A program made the translations under genes and the position numbers. From positions 1,190,057-1,254,056 of the forward strand of contig NFUW01000001.1 in the NCBI GenBank assembly GCA_002127285.1: a DNA stretch of 64,000 nt. The letters are read 5' to 3'. A model generated the notes under the pieces. It was not told where the DNA came from, searched no databases, and was given only the letters and a program-made list of their open reading frames with translations. Position 1 is the stretch's first letter. Each line of letters begins with the position of its first letter. Below are positions 6,935 through 32,122 of this stretch, piece by piece. The stretch comes from Chitinophagaceae bacterium IBVUCB1 (GTDB lineage Bacteria > Bacteroidota > Bacteroidia > Chitinophagales > Chitinophagaceae).

Positions 6935-8095
6935 CTACCCAATAGCCTGCTCCAAATCCGCAATCAAATCATCCGCATCTTCTATACCTACGCTCAGGCG
7001 TATCAGGCTGTCCACCAATCCGTTTTTTATGCGTTCTTCTCTGGGTATAGAGCCGTGCGTCATGCTGGCGGGGTGGCCTATTAAAGATTCTACACCACCT
7101 AGGCTTTCCGCCAAAGAAAATAGTTCTGTTTTCTTCAGCACATTCATCGCCGCATCCATATTGTCGTCTTTCAGCGTAAAAGACATCATACCGCCAAAGC
7201 CGCGCATTTGCTTCTTCGCCACATCGTGGTTGGGGTGGTCGGCAAATCCGCACCAATACACTTTGCCCACTTTGGGGTGGTTGCGCAGGTAGTTGGCTAT
7301 TTTCTCGCCGTTTTCGCAGTGGCGTTGCATACGCACATGCAGGGTTTTAATGCCACGCAGTACCAGCCAGCAGTCGTGCGGGCCCGGCACCGCACCGCAA
7401 CTGTTTTGTATAAAGCGCAGCTTTTCTTCCAGTGCAGCGTCATTCATTATCAGTGCGCCATGCACCACATCGCTATGTCCGCCCAGGTATTTGGTTGCAG
7501 AGTGCAGCACAATATCCGCACCTTGGTCTAATGGATTTTGCAGATAGGGAGATGCGAATGTATTATCAACCACCAATAGCAGTTTGTGCTCTTTGGCTAT
7601 TGCAGCGCAGGCAGCTATATCTACAATATTCAGCAGCGGATTGGTAGGTGTTTCAGTCCATATCATTTTGGTATTGCCATTGATATAGCCGCGTATGTTG
7701 TTGGCATCTGCCATATCTATAAAGTGAAACTTAATACCGTAGTTGGCAAACATTTTGGTAAAGATGCGGTACGTACCGCCATACAGGTCGTTAGCAACAA
7801 TCACCTCATCGCCTGGAGCAAGCAGTTTAGCAACGGCATCCGTTGCCGCCATACCACTACCAAAGCATAGGGCGTGATTACCATTCTCTATAGCAGCCAA
7901 TGCGTTTTGCAATACAGTGCGTGTCGGGTTTTGCGTACGAGCGTATTCATAGCCCTTATGGTCGCCGGGGGCTGCCTGCACGTAGGTAGATGTCTGATAG
8001 ATGGGTGTCATGATTGCACCCGTTGTAGGGTCCGGGCTTATACCTGCGTGTATCAGTTTGGTAGCCAGTTTATGATTCTTATTATTCATTGCCAT
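6935..8095 (-). CDS. metB: Trans-sulfuration PLP enzyme (cystathionine gamma-synthase/lyase)
   Basis: A 386-residue Cys/Met-metabolism PLP-dependent enzyme of the MetB/MetC fold. Diagnostic segments are YEYARTQNPTRTVLQ, the substrate and PLP region GSGMAATDAV, and the PLP-lysine motif SATKYLGGHSD near residue 200. It either joins O-succinyl- or O-acetylhomoserine with cysteine to make cystathionine, or cleaves cystathionine; the two activities cannot be separated by eye, so the symbol is provisional. Length is normal. Translation may start at Met1 or Met3. A minus-strand TACCTTTG promoter element lies 17-24 bases upstream, sharing a 45-base divergent region with ruvB. Confidence 0.9.
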   Translation of the reverse strand: MAMNNKNHKLATKLIHAGISPDPTTGAIMTPIYQTSTYVQAAPGDHKGYEYARTQNPTRTVLQNALAAIENGNHALCFGSGMAATDAVAKLLAPGDEVIVANDLYGGTYRIFTKMFANYGIKFHFIDMADANNIRGYINGNTKMIWTETPTNPLLNIVDIAACAAIAKEHKLLLVVDNTFASPYLQNPLDQGADIVLHSATKYLGGHSDVVHGALIMNDAALEEKLRFIQNSCGAVPGPHDCWLVLRGIKTLHVRMQRHCENGEKIANYLRNHPKVGKVYWCGFADHPNHDVAKKQMRGFGGMMSFTLKDDNMDAAMNVLKKTELFSLAESLGGVESLIGHPASMTHGSIPREERIKNGLVDSLIRLSVGIEDADDLIADLEQAIG

Positions 8096-8111
8096 TGCTT
8101 ATTAATGGCTG

Positions 8112-8119
8112 CAAAGGTA
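8112..8119 (-). promoter_or_regulatory. Minus-7 promoter element of the trans-sulfuration gene
   Basis: On the minus strand this reads TACCTTTG, an exact match to the Bacteroidota TAnnTTTG consensus. The expected transcription start would leave a leader of only about 10-15 bases before the ATG at 8095. Confidence 0.6.
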
Positions 8120-8128
8120 TAGATTTCA

Positions 8129-8136
8129 TAACTTTA
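8129..8136 (+). promoter_or_regulatory. Candidate minus-7 promoter element of ruvB
   Basis: TAACTTTA matches TAnnTTTG in seven of eight positions and ends 4 bases before the ruvB ATG, implying a nearly leaderless transcript. Confidence 0.45.
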
Positions 8137-8140
8137 CCCA

Positions 8141-9163
8141 ATGCAGCAATCGCACGTCAGGCCATCAGATGATTTGAACCCGCAAGAGCGCGAGTACGAG
8201 AATAGCATCCGTCCGCAGTCTATTGACGATTTTTCGGGGCAGCCGAAGCTGATAGAAAACCTGCGTGTGTTCATAAAAGCTGCCAATCTGCGTGGCGAAT
8301 CGCTGGATCATGTGCTGTTTCATGGCCCGCCCGGCTTGGGCAAAACCACCCTGTCGCGCATTGTTGCCAACGAATTGGGGGTAAGCATTAAAGAAACAAG
8401 TGGCCCCGTTATAGAAAAACCTGCCGATCTCGCCGGCCTGCTCACCAGTCTGGAGCCGCGCGATGTATTGTTTATAGACGAGATACACCGCCTCAGCACC
8501 GTGGTAGAAGAATACCTCTATGCGGCGATGGAAGATTTTAAGATTGATATAATGATAGACAGCGGGCCTGCTGCCCGTTCGGTACAAATCAATCTCAGCC
8601 CGTTTACGTTGGTAGGTGCTACTACGCGCAGCGGTTTACTCACCTCACCTTTACTCAGTCGTTTCGGCATCAAGTCGCGCCTCGATTATTATAATGCGGA
8701 AGTACTGCAACGCATTGTGATGCGCGCTGCCGGGTTGATGAATGTAAAAGTAACGTCAGAGGCCGCATTGCAGATAGCGAGTCGTAGCCGGGGCACACCA
8801 CGTATTGCCAATGGGCTGCTGCGCCGTATGCGCGATTTTGCTCAGGTGCTTGGCAACGGCGTAATAGACCTTGCCATTGTAGAACATGGCTTGCGCGCAC
8901 TGAATGTGGATGAAAGCGGACTGGACGATATGGATAATAAAATCCTGAGCACACTGATAGATAAATTCAAAGGCGGGCCTACGGGCATTAATAATATCGC
9001 AACTGCCGTAGGCGAAGAAGCTGGCACGATTGAAGAAGTGTATGAGCCGTTTCTGATACAAGAGGGCTACATCATGCGTACGCCTCGTGGCAGGGAAGCC
9101 ACCGAAAAAGCCTACAAGCATTTGGGAAGAAAAAAACCGGGAGAAGCGGGTAGTTTGTTTTAA
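8141..9163 (+). CDS. ruvB: Holliday junction branch migration ATPase RuvB
   Basis: RuvB is the hexameric AAA+ motor that drives Holliday junction branch migration together with RuvA, in recombinational repair. The 340-residue protein carries a Walker A motif GPPGLGKTT (about residues 64-72), Walker B DEIHRL (about 112-117), the sensor stretch [18 protein letters not shown], and the C-terminal winged helix ending with the typical RTPRGRE segment. Length and motif order fit the family exactly. ruvA and ruvC are not in the window. The stop codon overlaps the convergent glycosyltransferase stop by 4 bases. Its likely promoter lies immediately upstream and divergent from the trans-sulfuration gene. 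Confidence 0.98.
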
Positions 9164-29959: not shown

Positions 29960-29985
29960 GCTTTTAATGGGTGGAATATAATGGC

Positions 29986-30194
29986 TGAATAGCTCAATGG
30001 CTTGATGGCTCAATTGGTGAATGTGATGGGTATATAGCGTTTGAAACGCTATGCCTGCGCATCCTCATTACAAACGGGAACGAGAATGGGTGAATAGCTC
30101 AATGGCTTGATGGCTCAATTAGTGAATGAGATGGTATATAGCGTTTGAAACGCTTTGCCTACGCATCCCCGTTACAAACGGGGACGAGAATGGG
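29986..30194. repeat. Tandem pair of about 105-bp REP-like repeats
   Basis: Two nearly identical units (29986-30090 and 30091-30194) stand head to tail, differing at a few bases and one indel. Each unit holds the direct repeat GCTCAATGGCTTGATGGCTC, then a palindrome AGCGTTTGAAACGCT, then a hairpin of the form CGTT-ACA-AACG (CCCCGTT/AACGGGG in the second copy). Paired palindromes like these resemble REP elements that RAYT transposases spread in other genomes; no transposase is in the window. The block separates the E1 gene from the NADAR cassette and fills most of a 379-base gap. Confidence 0.75.
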
Positions 30195-30315
30195 GGACGA
30201 GAAGGTATTAGCAATAAGAGAGGCGCAAAAGAAGCAGATAGAGTCCCCGTCTAACTTTAATAAAAGGCTAATACAGGCACTTGAATATAACCCTAAAGAA
30301 GATAAAACGGATTGA
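30190..30315 (+). CDS. Possible 41-residue ORF or gene remnant
   Basis: A short frame with ATG at 30190 just inside the end of the second repeat unit and a TGA at 30313-30315. The product (starting MGDEKVLAIREAQKKQIES) is charged and helix-like, with no hydrophobic or signal segment. It points toward the NADAR gene, which is convergent and ends 7 bases later. It might be a tiny protein, the tail of a gene disrupted by the repeat, or chance. I do not recognise it. Confidence 0.25.
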   Translation: MGDEKVLAIREAQKKQIESPSNFNKRLIQALEYNPKEDKTD

Positions 30316-30321
30316 TAATAT

Positions 30322-30942
30322 TTAAACGCAAGAGTATTCATCAAATGATGCGTACTCTAATTCTTTTAGTATAGGTTCGTCACAAACAGTATCTATGACA
30401 TTGCCATATAATAGAAATGCTATTATTTCTGGCGATTCTATGCAGCATTGACGATTGTTAGGAATAACATATTTATCTCTAATCTCCATTAATAACCTGC
30501 CTAAGGCATTAACCCCTATCAATGTATTGGCATCGGTTTGAACCGCAGCCCAATACTTGTCCCTATGCGAAAGTTCTACAATAGGTTTATTTTCTGTTTC
30601 TAATAATACCCTTGAAAACTTATCCCAATTCTGATATAACTTAACTTGTATAGCCCAACGCATGATTTTAACTTTCACGGTTTCCCAGTCCTGACGAGTC
30701 GCTAAATGATATTTTTTACTAATCATTTTAGCTGTCATAGGACTTCGTTCCCTTATTATTTCATACTGTACGTTAGGGAAAAGAGGAAACCTACATGCTT
30801 GATAAATATGTTCTGCCGAGGGGATAATAACACCATTGATATTTAAACTATAACCAGCACACATATTAGACAAGCCACCAAAAAGCCCAGTGGTTTTCTT
30901 GAAGGTTATCACTTCTTTAATATTGTACTGCCTTATATCCAT
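30322..30942 (-). CDS. NADAR-family protein (DUF1768/YbiA-like), predicted ADP-ribose/N-glycoside hydrolase
   Basis: A 206-residue NADAR-domain protein. The ATG at 30942 is chosen over a TTG three codons upstream. Conserved blocks are GLFGGLSNM (about residues 19-27), the active-site-like PSAEHIYQACRF (about 41-52), SPMTAKMISKKY, DWETVKVKIMRWAIQVKL, and the C-terminal GVNALGRLLMEIR. Known NADAR proteins remove ADP-ribose from guanine bases in nucleic acid, and the family is tied to NAD/ADP-ribose metabolism and toxin-antitoxin or defence loci. It starts 36 bases after the phosphoribosyltransferase-like gene, so both are one operon. Codon use is AT-richer than the flanks. The sequence ends about 40 residues beyond the core domain. 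Confidence 0.85.
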   Translation of the reverse strand: MDIRQYNIKEVITFKKTTGLFGGLSNMCAGYSLNINGVIIPSAEHIYQACRFPLFPNVQYEIIRERSPMTAKMISKKYHLATRQDWETVKVKIMRWAIQVKLYQNWDKFSRVLLETENKPIVELSHRDKYWAAVQTDANTLIGVNALGRLLMEIRDKYVIPNNRQCCIESPEIIAFLLYGNVIDTVCDEPILKELEYASFDEYSCV

Positions 30943-30978
30943 TTCGTGCAAGTTATTGCGTTTATTCGAAAAATCAAA

Positions 30979-32037
30979 TTAAGTCCCTCTATGGTTCAAT
31001 GGGAACAAGCCTTTCCAGCCGTGCGCAGGATTATCCCACCAAAAGACTAACGGGCAGGTATTAGAAATATTGTTCCAACTAAAGAACAAAGTACCAGTAC
31101 CAAAAGTTTTATAATGTGGGTAAGTACATCCTAAAGGTCTAATCCCTACCCCCAAATTTTTAACTTTGCTAAGTATGGTAATTCCTGTTTCTAATAGAAT
31201 TCCTTCAAAACGAACTCTGTTGTCGGTATTGCTAAAAAGTGTTTCGTTTTTAGGTTGTCCTTTTGCTCTCCACGCATATTTTTCATTGCTTTGAGCCTCT
31301 AATGCACTTAAATATTGAACACCTATTTTAGAAGACCCATCTAAGGGTAATATCATATTTAACTTTGGATTGTAGCTTCTGGTATTGTTTTCTATAGAAT
31401 AATGGGAAAATATAGTCAGGTTATTTAAAAACCAATCGTCATTAAATGTTTTACTCAAACTATATTTGATATTATCGCAAGCCCATAGATGTTTGCAAAA
31501 TACAGCAACCGCATATCGAATTTTGCCGCTCTTCACCCCCTTTAAATTACCTTCATTGTGGAAATCTTTGCCCTCCATGAATTTTCTACAATCCTTCAAG
31601 ACGGTTCTCCCGGTAGATAAGACATCATCAATGTAAACAATGTTTTTCTTGGACTTAGCTCCACATTTATCAAGTGATATTTCAAACTTTTCCTTGATAA
31701 CATCGTCCAGTAATTTCAACAAAATACACTGACTTTTATGTTTTGGTTGCTGGCACAAAAAAAAGGTTTCGCTCAAACATTCTTTAACCGAGCCATATTT
31801 CCAAGTTTCAGTTATATGGTTTATTAATCCAAGCAAAATGTCTTTCGCTCTGTGCTTGGAAACATAAACCCCTTGATTTAAAATATGCAGAAACTCATCT
31901 AAAATAAATGACCTATCGCCAACTTGAAATTGCTGAACCCACGATATAACATTTTCGTGAGTCATTGTAAACCCATTATCTCTATCGGAATGGTAATCTT
32001 TCAAAATGTCCGATATTTCTTTCGCCTGCTTTTCCAT
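30979..32037 (-). CDS. Phosphoribosyltransferase-like protein, putative conflict-system component
   Basis: A 352-residue protein, first gene of the two-gene cassette. The ATG at 32037 is preferred to a GTG nine codons earlier. The key segment is NIVYIDDVLSTGRTV (about residues 132-146), a PRPP-binding loop with the DD pair and TGRT, as in type I phosphoribosyltransferases. The first 110 residues are helical and charged; the last 150 are unusual and end with an aromatic, Gly-rich tail (VFWWDNPAHGWKGLF). It is too large for a salvage enzyme and lacks a salvage-type base hood. PRTase-like proteins of this kind occur in predicted prokaryotic conflict systems; pairing with NADAR supports that reading. 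Activity is unknown. Confidence 0.65.
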   Translation of the reverse strand: MEKQAKEISDILKDYHSDRDNGFTMTHENVISWVQQFQVGDRSFILDEFLHILNQGVYVSKHRAKDILLGLINHITETWKYGSVKECLSETFFLCQQPKHKSQCILLKLLDDVIKEKFEISLDKCGAKSKKNIVYIDDVLSTGRTVLKDCRKFMEGKDFHNEGNLKGVKSGKIRYAVAVFCKHLWACDNIKYSLSKTFNDDWFLNNLTIFSHYSIENNTRSYNPKLNMILPLDGSSKIGVQYLSALEAQSNEKYAWRAKGQPKNETLFSNTDNRVRFEGILLETGITILSKVKNLGVGIRPLGCTYPHYKTFGTGTLFFSWNNISNTCPLVFWWDNPAHGWKGLFPLNHRGT

Positions 32038-32096
32038 ACATATTAAAAATATGCAAGTTAACACAATTATCTTTTGTGTAAAGTAGTATATAGTTA

Positions 32097-32122
32097 CCCC
32101 TTGGGAGGGGTTGGGGAGGCTA
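32097..32122. repeat. GC-rich palindromic repeat, copy A
   Basis: CCCCTTGGGAGGGG followed by TTGGGGAGGCTA. The final CTA is the complement of the TAG stop codon of the minus-strand GH3 gene, so the repeat edge forms the gene end. The same element recurs at 42225-42258 (inverted) and 42350-42382. Confidence 0.7.

Follow-up and report, generated by a model that had tools for sequence, protein, structure and literature searches.

What unites a phosphoribosyltransferase-like (PRTase) gene and a NADAR gene that stand side by side in Chitinophagaceae bacterium IBVUCB1? The two genes lie in a stretch of 64,000 nucleotides of contig NFUW01000001.1 (hereafter the window). An original prediction, made from the letters alone, took them for a candidate toxin/antidote or phage-defence unit within a mobile accessory cassette. 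Curated models, gene order and linkage place the pair, at the level of sequence, in the DS-32 anti-phage family, as one of its free-standing representatives. The features concerned are:

30979..32037, minus strand: PRTase-CE gene (DS32_1), 352 amino acids, ATG at 32037, stop codon ending at 30979
30943..30978, minus strand: intergenic gap of 36 bases
30322..30942, minus strand: NADAR gene (DS32_2), 206 amino acids, ATG at 30942, stop codon ending at 30322

Assignment to the DS-32 anti-phage family

Open reading frames (ORFs) and base composition agree with the AT-rich minus-strand pair described earlier, a 352-residue PRTase followed at the noted spacing by a NADAR partner. G+C content is 34-37% in segments wholly within the pair and 43-53% in neighbouring genes. 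Longer non-ATG starts are available for the PRTase (GTG at 32064) and for NADAR (TTG at 30951), and spacing and common strand suggest that both genes form one operon. The source genome (3.41 Mb, two contigs) yielded a single PRTase match, and the NADAR gene is its sole NADAR-domain gene.

Profile searches placed both proteins above the Pfam cut-offs (PRTase-CE, 1.7e-42; NADAR, 4.7e-24 and 85.9 bits against a cut-off of 35.1). The curated cut-offs of two NCBIfam families were also exceeded, by the PRTase with 270.1 bits for DS32_1_antiphage (NF053875; cut-off 250) and by the NADAR protein with 255.7 bits for DS32_2_antiphage (NF053876; cut-off 240). The gene order is that of DS-32, with the PRTase first and NADAR directly downstream on the same strand. 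Among the matches listed, RefSeq names both E. coli homologues anti-phage in 4 of 60 records (H42, H51, H62 and H74), as 'phosphoribosyltransferase-like anti-phage protein' and 'NADAR family anti-phage protein'. The earlier statement that no characterised system has exactly this pair therefore does not hold, as NCBIfam calls both families anti-phage and RefSeq does likewise in E. coli. The proposed defence role agrees with the curated families and the linked loci, and protection by the window pair is predicted on this basis.

The DefensePredictor report describes 42 of 94 cloned units as protective in E. coli; the legend of its Figure 4 spells out PRTase, and NADAR proteins are among the validated ones in its text (PMC13092281). 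Judged from the names, 'DS32' of NCBI is probably DefensePredictor DS-32, a label absent from the main text of that report. The screen used E. coli genes, whereas the window copy is a Chitinophagaceae homologue sharing both families, their order and strand, and scores above the curated cut-offs. No mechanism for DS-32 was found in the literature searched, and a literature search for 'PRTase-CE' gave no match.

Linkage and distribution of the pair

Recurrent linkage of the two families, to be expected from the original prediction, was observed from both sides. Starting from the PRTase, matches over the DS32_1 cut-off were collected from five partly overlapping samples of Bacteroidota genomes (294, 395, 395, 301 and 391). 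In all 20 distinct genomes, source genome included, NADAR lies directly downstream on the same strand; it is cut by a contig end in one of them. Matches below the cut-off were excluded from this count. Seven of these (L004, L005, L010-L013 and L105) were examined and none has a NADAR gene; further ones are L102-L104, L106-L112, L192, L193 and L198-L202. All three records from a plasmid collection are paired, one being a 5.4-Mb record labelled plasmid. Two Chryseobacterium genomes carry two tandem PRTases ahead of one NADAR (L037:7720-9965 and L047:7738-9964).

Starting from NADAR, one genome per species was scanned and the best 80 of 315 relatives were kept. A full-length PRTase stands upstream on the same strand in 70 of these 80 loci, which come from about a dozen phyla. 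The others lack a matching PRTase ORF (L017, L020, L032 and L041, with NADARs still above the DS32_2 cut-off), contain PRTase fragments or a split frame (L033, L042, L055 and L061) or lie at contig ends (L076 and L092). Over 79 loci, those with more similar PRTases also tend to have more similar NADARs (r 0.75 between the pairwise identities), for which shared descent alone could suffice.

In E. coli, the pair or part of it occurs in 63 of 5426 genomes, 43 of them with at least 80% of the query, and is chromosomal. Where its surroundings were inspected, the pair belongs to a lambdoid prophage, with replication gene P on one side and the nin region on the other; in two records an insertion sequence (IS) splits the PRTase gene and leaves NADAR whole. 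In one prophage (L097:1-6574), a HipA-kinase/DUF3037 pair of the DS-6 kind lies a few genes away.

Carriage of the PRTase by phages was considered and rejected, as tblastn of the window and E. coli PRTases against a phage collection gave no match. A search of viral contigs with P0001 gave no match either. Of 40 loci retrieved from viral contigs with the NADAR alignment, 35 have an upstream PRTase match; in L140 and L169 this is only part of the PRTase, at the contig end, and L179 has NADAR in two frames. NADAR stands alone, near 8000-8600, on four viral contigs of 177-485 kb (L155, L156, L176 and L178), L155 and L156 resembling one virus, and L154 is a lone NADAR at a contig end. The three lone viral NADARs scanned reached 190-232 bits against the DS32_2 cut-off of 240 (L178 being given in part). 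That such lone NADARs might be phage-borne antidotes is a guess.

An accessory insertion into an old junction

The surroundings of the pair comprise the following features:

29960..32119 (approximate), no strand: segment missing from congeners, with flanking genes 84-92 bp apart in eight junctions read
29980..30197, no strand: dispersed repeat in two copies, palindrome TAGCGTTTGAAACGCTA, with partial matches elsewhere in the genome; no cassette end
32097..32116, no strand: hairpin-like 20-mer (by eye), right after the stop codon of the flanking gene

Judged by eye, the flanking genes encode a thiamine-dependent dehydrogenase E1 and a glycosidase/beta-lactamase; both genes are present in all 15 genus genomes searched. 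They are 2.19 kb apart in the source genome and adjacent in 9 of 14 congeners, where match coordinates place them 84-94 bp apart; the range given above comes from eight of these nine empty junctions read directly. In the remaining five, the flanking genes are far apart on one contig (G169 and G094) or on separate contigs (G1012, G1017 and G1018), the latter possibly through assembly breaks. The adjacency of the flanking genes in nine congeners shows that the pair was inserted at an old junction, immediately upstream of the E1 gene, which supports the view of the pair as an accessory insertion.

The repeats that had been read as bounds of a mobile cassette do exist, yet they do not match each other. 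On the left, two units lie about 105 bases apart, with segments 91% and 94% alike; they belong to a dispersed element that has five further partial matches in the source genome. The 20-mer on the right is single in the window at up to three mismatches. As no listed direct or inverted repeat joins the two blocks, matched terminal repeats were rejected as mobile-element ends. According to the ORF list, the insert contains no integrase ORF and, beyond the two genes, no ORF longer than 61 amino acids. The claimed accessory insertion is supported by the empty sites, although the insert shows neither an integrase ORF nor terminal repeats that match.

Occurrence and location also bear on the view that the two genes are ordinary neighbours in nucleotide salvage or riboflavin damage control with no part in defence. 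The NADAR protein does score with TIGR02464, the model of a riboflavin-intermediate N-glycosidase, at 74.8 bits barely above the cut-off of 73.7, but the same protein reaches its 255.7 bits with DS32_2. Other PRTase-type models gave 11.7-14 bits on the window PRTase against cut-offs of 138-322, so that the salvage-type active site named earlier as a ground for refutation did not appear. The scattered distribution (2 of 294 genomes of the family exceed the DS32_1 cut-off, the source genome being one), the empty sites and the prophage location in the E. coli records inspected make such a role highly improbable.

Predicted activities of the two proteins

We see about an even chance that the PRTase is an effector and NADAR its controller, coupled to a restriction complex in other lineages. 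On infection, the PRTase would move phosphoribosyl from 5-phosphoribosyl 1-pyrophosphate (PRPP) onto a target, and this phosphoribosylation would halt phage and host; a nucleobase, either of a nucleotide or within nucleic acid, is the probable acceptor. In healthy cells NADAR, as the cognate controller, would act as an N-glycosidase removing the ribosyl adduct, and it may also bind the PRTase. In other lineages, where NADAR forms part of an HsdS or HmaB subunit, control of the PRTase would be tied to the restriction complex. The earlier idea of a writer and an eraser of a ribosyl modification is plausible.

Structure prediction gave a confident type I PRTase fold for the window PRTase, in which the PRPP motif IVYIDDVLSTGRTV, found as claimed, is intact (D137, D138 and G143). 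In the family alignment, D137, D138 and G143 are present in 79 of 79 rows and Ser or Thr at position 142 in 78. Foldseek with the model returned nothing with E below 0.001 (best 1.5e-3), the matches listed being PRTases or relatives. Against PDB sequences, the PRTase alignment found chance-level matches only (Pumilio, E 0.08), and the fold assignment thus rests on the predicted model. We predict that the PRTase is the effector and NADAR an antidote or controller. PRTase-CE also occurs as the C-terminal domain of AAA proteins or fused to an OLD-type TOPRIM (L180:3500-6682, L181:5966-9163 and L182:5413-6846), followed in L180 by a Mrr-type nuclease gene; these architectures are candidates for other defence systems.

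The NADAR protein is of the YbiA type. Its domain exceeds the Pfam cut-off, the best solved-structure match of the family profile (A2) is E. coli YbiA (2b3w, 4.1e-29), and the catalytic Glu and Lys/Arg positions are all occupied. Across 89 aligned rows, E44 and E123 never vary, and residue 51 is Arg in 81 and Lys in 8; the window protein has E44, R51 and E123. Spacing and the YbiA alignment suggest that these residues match the catalytic ones reported for other NADARs (PMC11543638, PMC11125620). In DarT1-linked NADARs, rescue from the toxin depends on a Glu and a Lys, the probable counterparts of E44 and R51; exchange of the Lys for Arg retained hydrolysis in vitro and abolished rescue, and the superfamily Glu near E123 is functionally replaced by Asp (PMC11543638).

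Conservation is higher in NADAR (mean pairwise identity 53%) than in the PRTase (34%; 79 loci), and NADAR is the part fused to DNA-recognition subunits, as described below. Both observations would suit a sensor or structural regulator that binds a ribosylated ligand or phage product and releases or activates the PRTase, with no covalent modification being reversed. The invariance of E44, K/R51 and E123 is unlike a pure binding relic, and we regard this role as rather unlikely. A private NADAR promoter as in toxin-antitoxin operons was also considered and rejected: a Bacteroidetes-type -7 box (one variant from the consensus allowed) precedes NADAR in 10 of 42 loci.

Alternatively, both proteins might be effectors of a futile cycle, in which NADAR hydrolyses the N-glycosidic bond that the PRTase has made from PRPP and a base or amine; PRPP, and with it nucleotides, would be drained, and neither protein would be an antidote. 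The riboflavin intermediates cleaved by YbiA-type NADARs are 5-phosphoribosyl compounds. Consistent with such a cycle, YbiA-type NADARs cut the N-glycosidic bond of these intermediates (PMC11543638), the expected catalytic residues are kept in both proteins, and every examined PRTase over the DS32_1 cut-off is paired with NADAR (20 of 20). It is nonetheless quite unlikely, as PRTase-CE occurs in other defence-like architectures without NADAR and the fusions of NADAR to HsdS and HmaB are hard to fit to a metabolite drain.

NADAR fusions and known systems

Among the 80 NADAR ORFs, 32 extend at least 60 residues beyond the domain; these extensions were grouped by sequence. The largest group has an HsdS-like type I specificity subunit fused to NADAR, in 13 of 80 loci:

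L065:6712-15626, together with L052, L067, L072, L080, L082, L085, L087, L089, L091, L092, L095 and L096: NADAR::HsdS loci

With one representative of each neighbour family scanned, an HsdM-like gene was found upstream in 12 of the 13 and an HsdR-like gene downstream in 12, the missing ones falling at contig ends (L092 and L095 are cut). A GmrSD_N-like gene stands in between in 6 of 13, which gives the layout HsdM - (sometimes GmrSD_N) - PRTase - NADAR::HsdS - HsdR. Pfam Methylase_S exceeded its cut-off in the three fusions scanned, barely so in L052, and PADLOC also recognised L065. L052 is from a Nanosynbacter metagenome-assembled genome and possibly misbinned. In the NADAR tree, the HsdS label needs three changes and a single origin of the fusion is possible; the window protein groups with Chitinophaga (100/85), amid free-standing forms. 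A description of the fusion was not met in the literature, searched largely at the surface; in one paper that names both NADAR and HsdS, the latter appears in strain genotypes.

In four further loci (L071:3181-12391, L084, L086 and L078, the last cut by a contig end), NADAR is fused to a DUF1156/HmaB-like methylase, and all four have an HmaA-like helicase gene upstream, as in the helicase-methylase system Hma; no such genes lie beside the window pair. DUF1156 was recognised by Pfam in three and HmaB by PADLOC in both scanned, and one scanned fusion stayed below the NCBIfam DUF1156_antiphage cut-off (213 versus 1000). Other partners are an M78 peptidase of the ImmA type, capP-like, in 2 of 80 (Paenibacillus L093:10001-11869 and L094, one scanned) and a helix-hairpin-helix domain in 4 of 80 (one scanned). 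Six cyanobacterial NADARs have a tail, with no Pfam match in the one scanned, and three show other extensions.

The HsdS and HmaB fusions suggest, by analogy, a guard coupled to restriction like the anticodon nuclease PrrC of EcoprrI, which a linked type I restriction enzyme keeps silent until a phage inhibitor sets it free (PMC2610378). Only the fused relatives resemble PrrC, as an extra gene pair inside an hsd operon, and they differ in that the predicted effector is a PRTase and NADAR, the putative control protein, forms one chain with HsdS. The window pair has no adjoining hsd genes; no restriction-complex genes were found in the insert, and the flanking genes were judged by eye and by their presence in 15 of 15 genus genomes. 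Carried further, PRTase-NADAR could be a transferable guard module with the antidote borne on a self/non-self complex wherever NADAR is fused to HsdS or HmaB. A phage that inhibits, degrades or sequesters the complex would remove the antidote, and the PRTase would kill by phosphoribosylation. Pairs that stand free, such as that of the window, would represent an autonomous version of the module, and NADARs without a PRTase, among them those of large viral contigs, would be antidotes retained after loss or absence of the effector. We know of no such guard that kills by phosphoribosylation, and consider this extension doubtful.

Two further systems share elements with the pair. DarT1-NADAR (DarTG1) likewise has NADAR beside a putative ribosyl-transferring partner. 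In the window, however, this partner is a type I PRTase that would use PRPP, not an ADP-ribosyltransferase using nicotinamide adenine dinucleotide (NAD+); neither protein matches an ADP-ribosyltransferase family in Pfam. In contrast to the DarT1-linked proteins, DS-32 NADARs have a Glu at what appears to be the YbiA-type position, and their phosphate-contact residue is in most cases Arg. Type III-A retrons combine a PRTase with winged-helix effectors, and the PADLOC model PRTase_III-A matches residues 2-156 of the window PRTase (6.9e-10). The insert contains no reverse transcriptase ORF; a retron non-coding RNA was not searched for.

Several points weigh against an effector PRTase controlled by NADAR. 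The fusion to HsdS or HmaB could serve complex assembly instead of reversal. NADAR loci without an intact PRTase (8 of 78, two contig-end loci excluded) outnumber PRTase loci without NADAR (0 of 23), but this asymmetry is not significant (one-sided P 0.12) and was rejected as proof of an antitoxin. In one E. coli record, the PRTase is truncated and NADAR was lost through an IS1-linked deletion. Arg replaces the final Thr of the PRPP motif in 32 of 79 aligned sequences, and sequence searches found no solved structure for the PRTase family. Moreover, the window copy may be weak, since it has Asn322 where the other 78 of 79 sequences have Arg.

In summary, a recognised anti-phage family gains a Bacteroidota member in the window pair, whose site is empty in nine congeners. 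The wider survey, with NADAR fused to restriction specificity and methylase subunits, carries more weight than the window pair itself. These fusions pose a specific question, namely whether an inhibited restriction complex would release a phosphoribosyl-transferring toxin.
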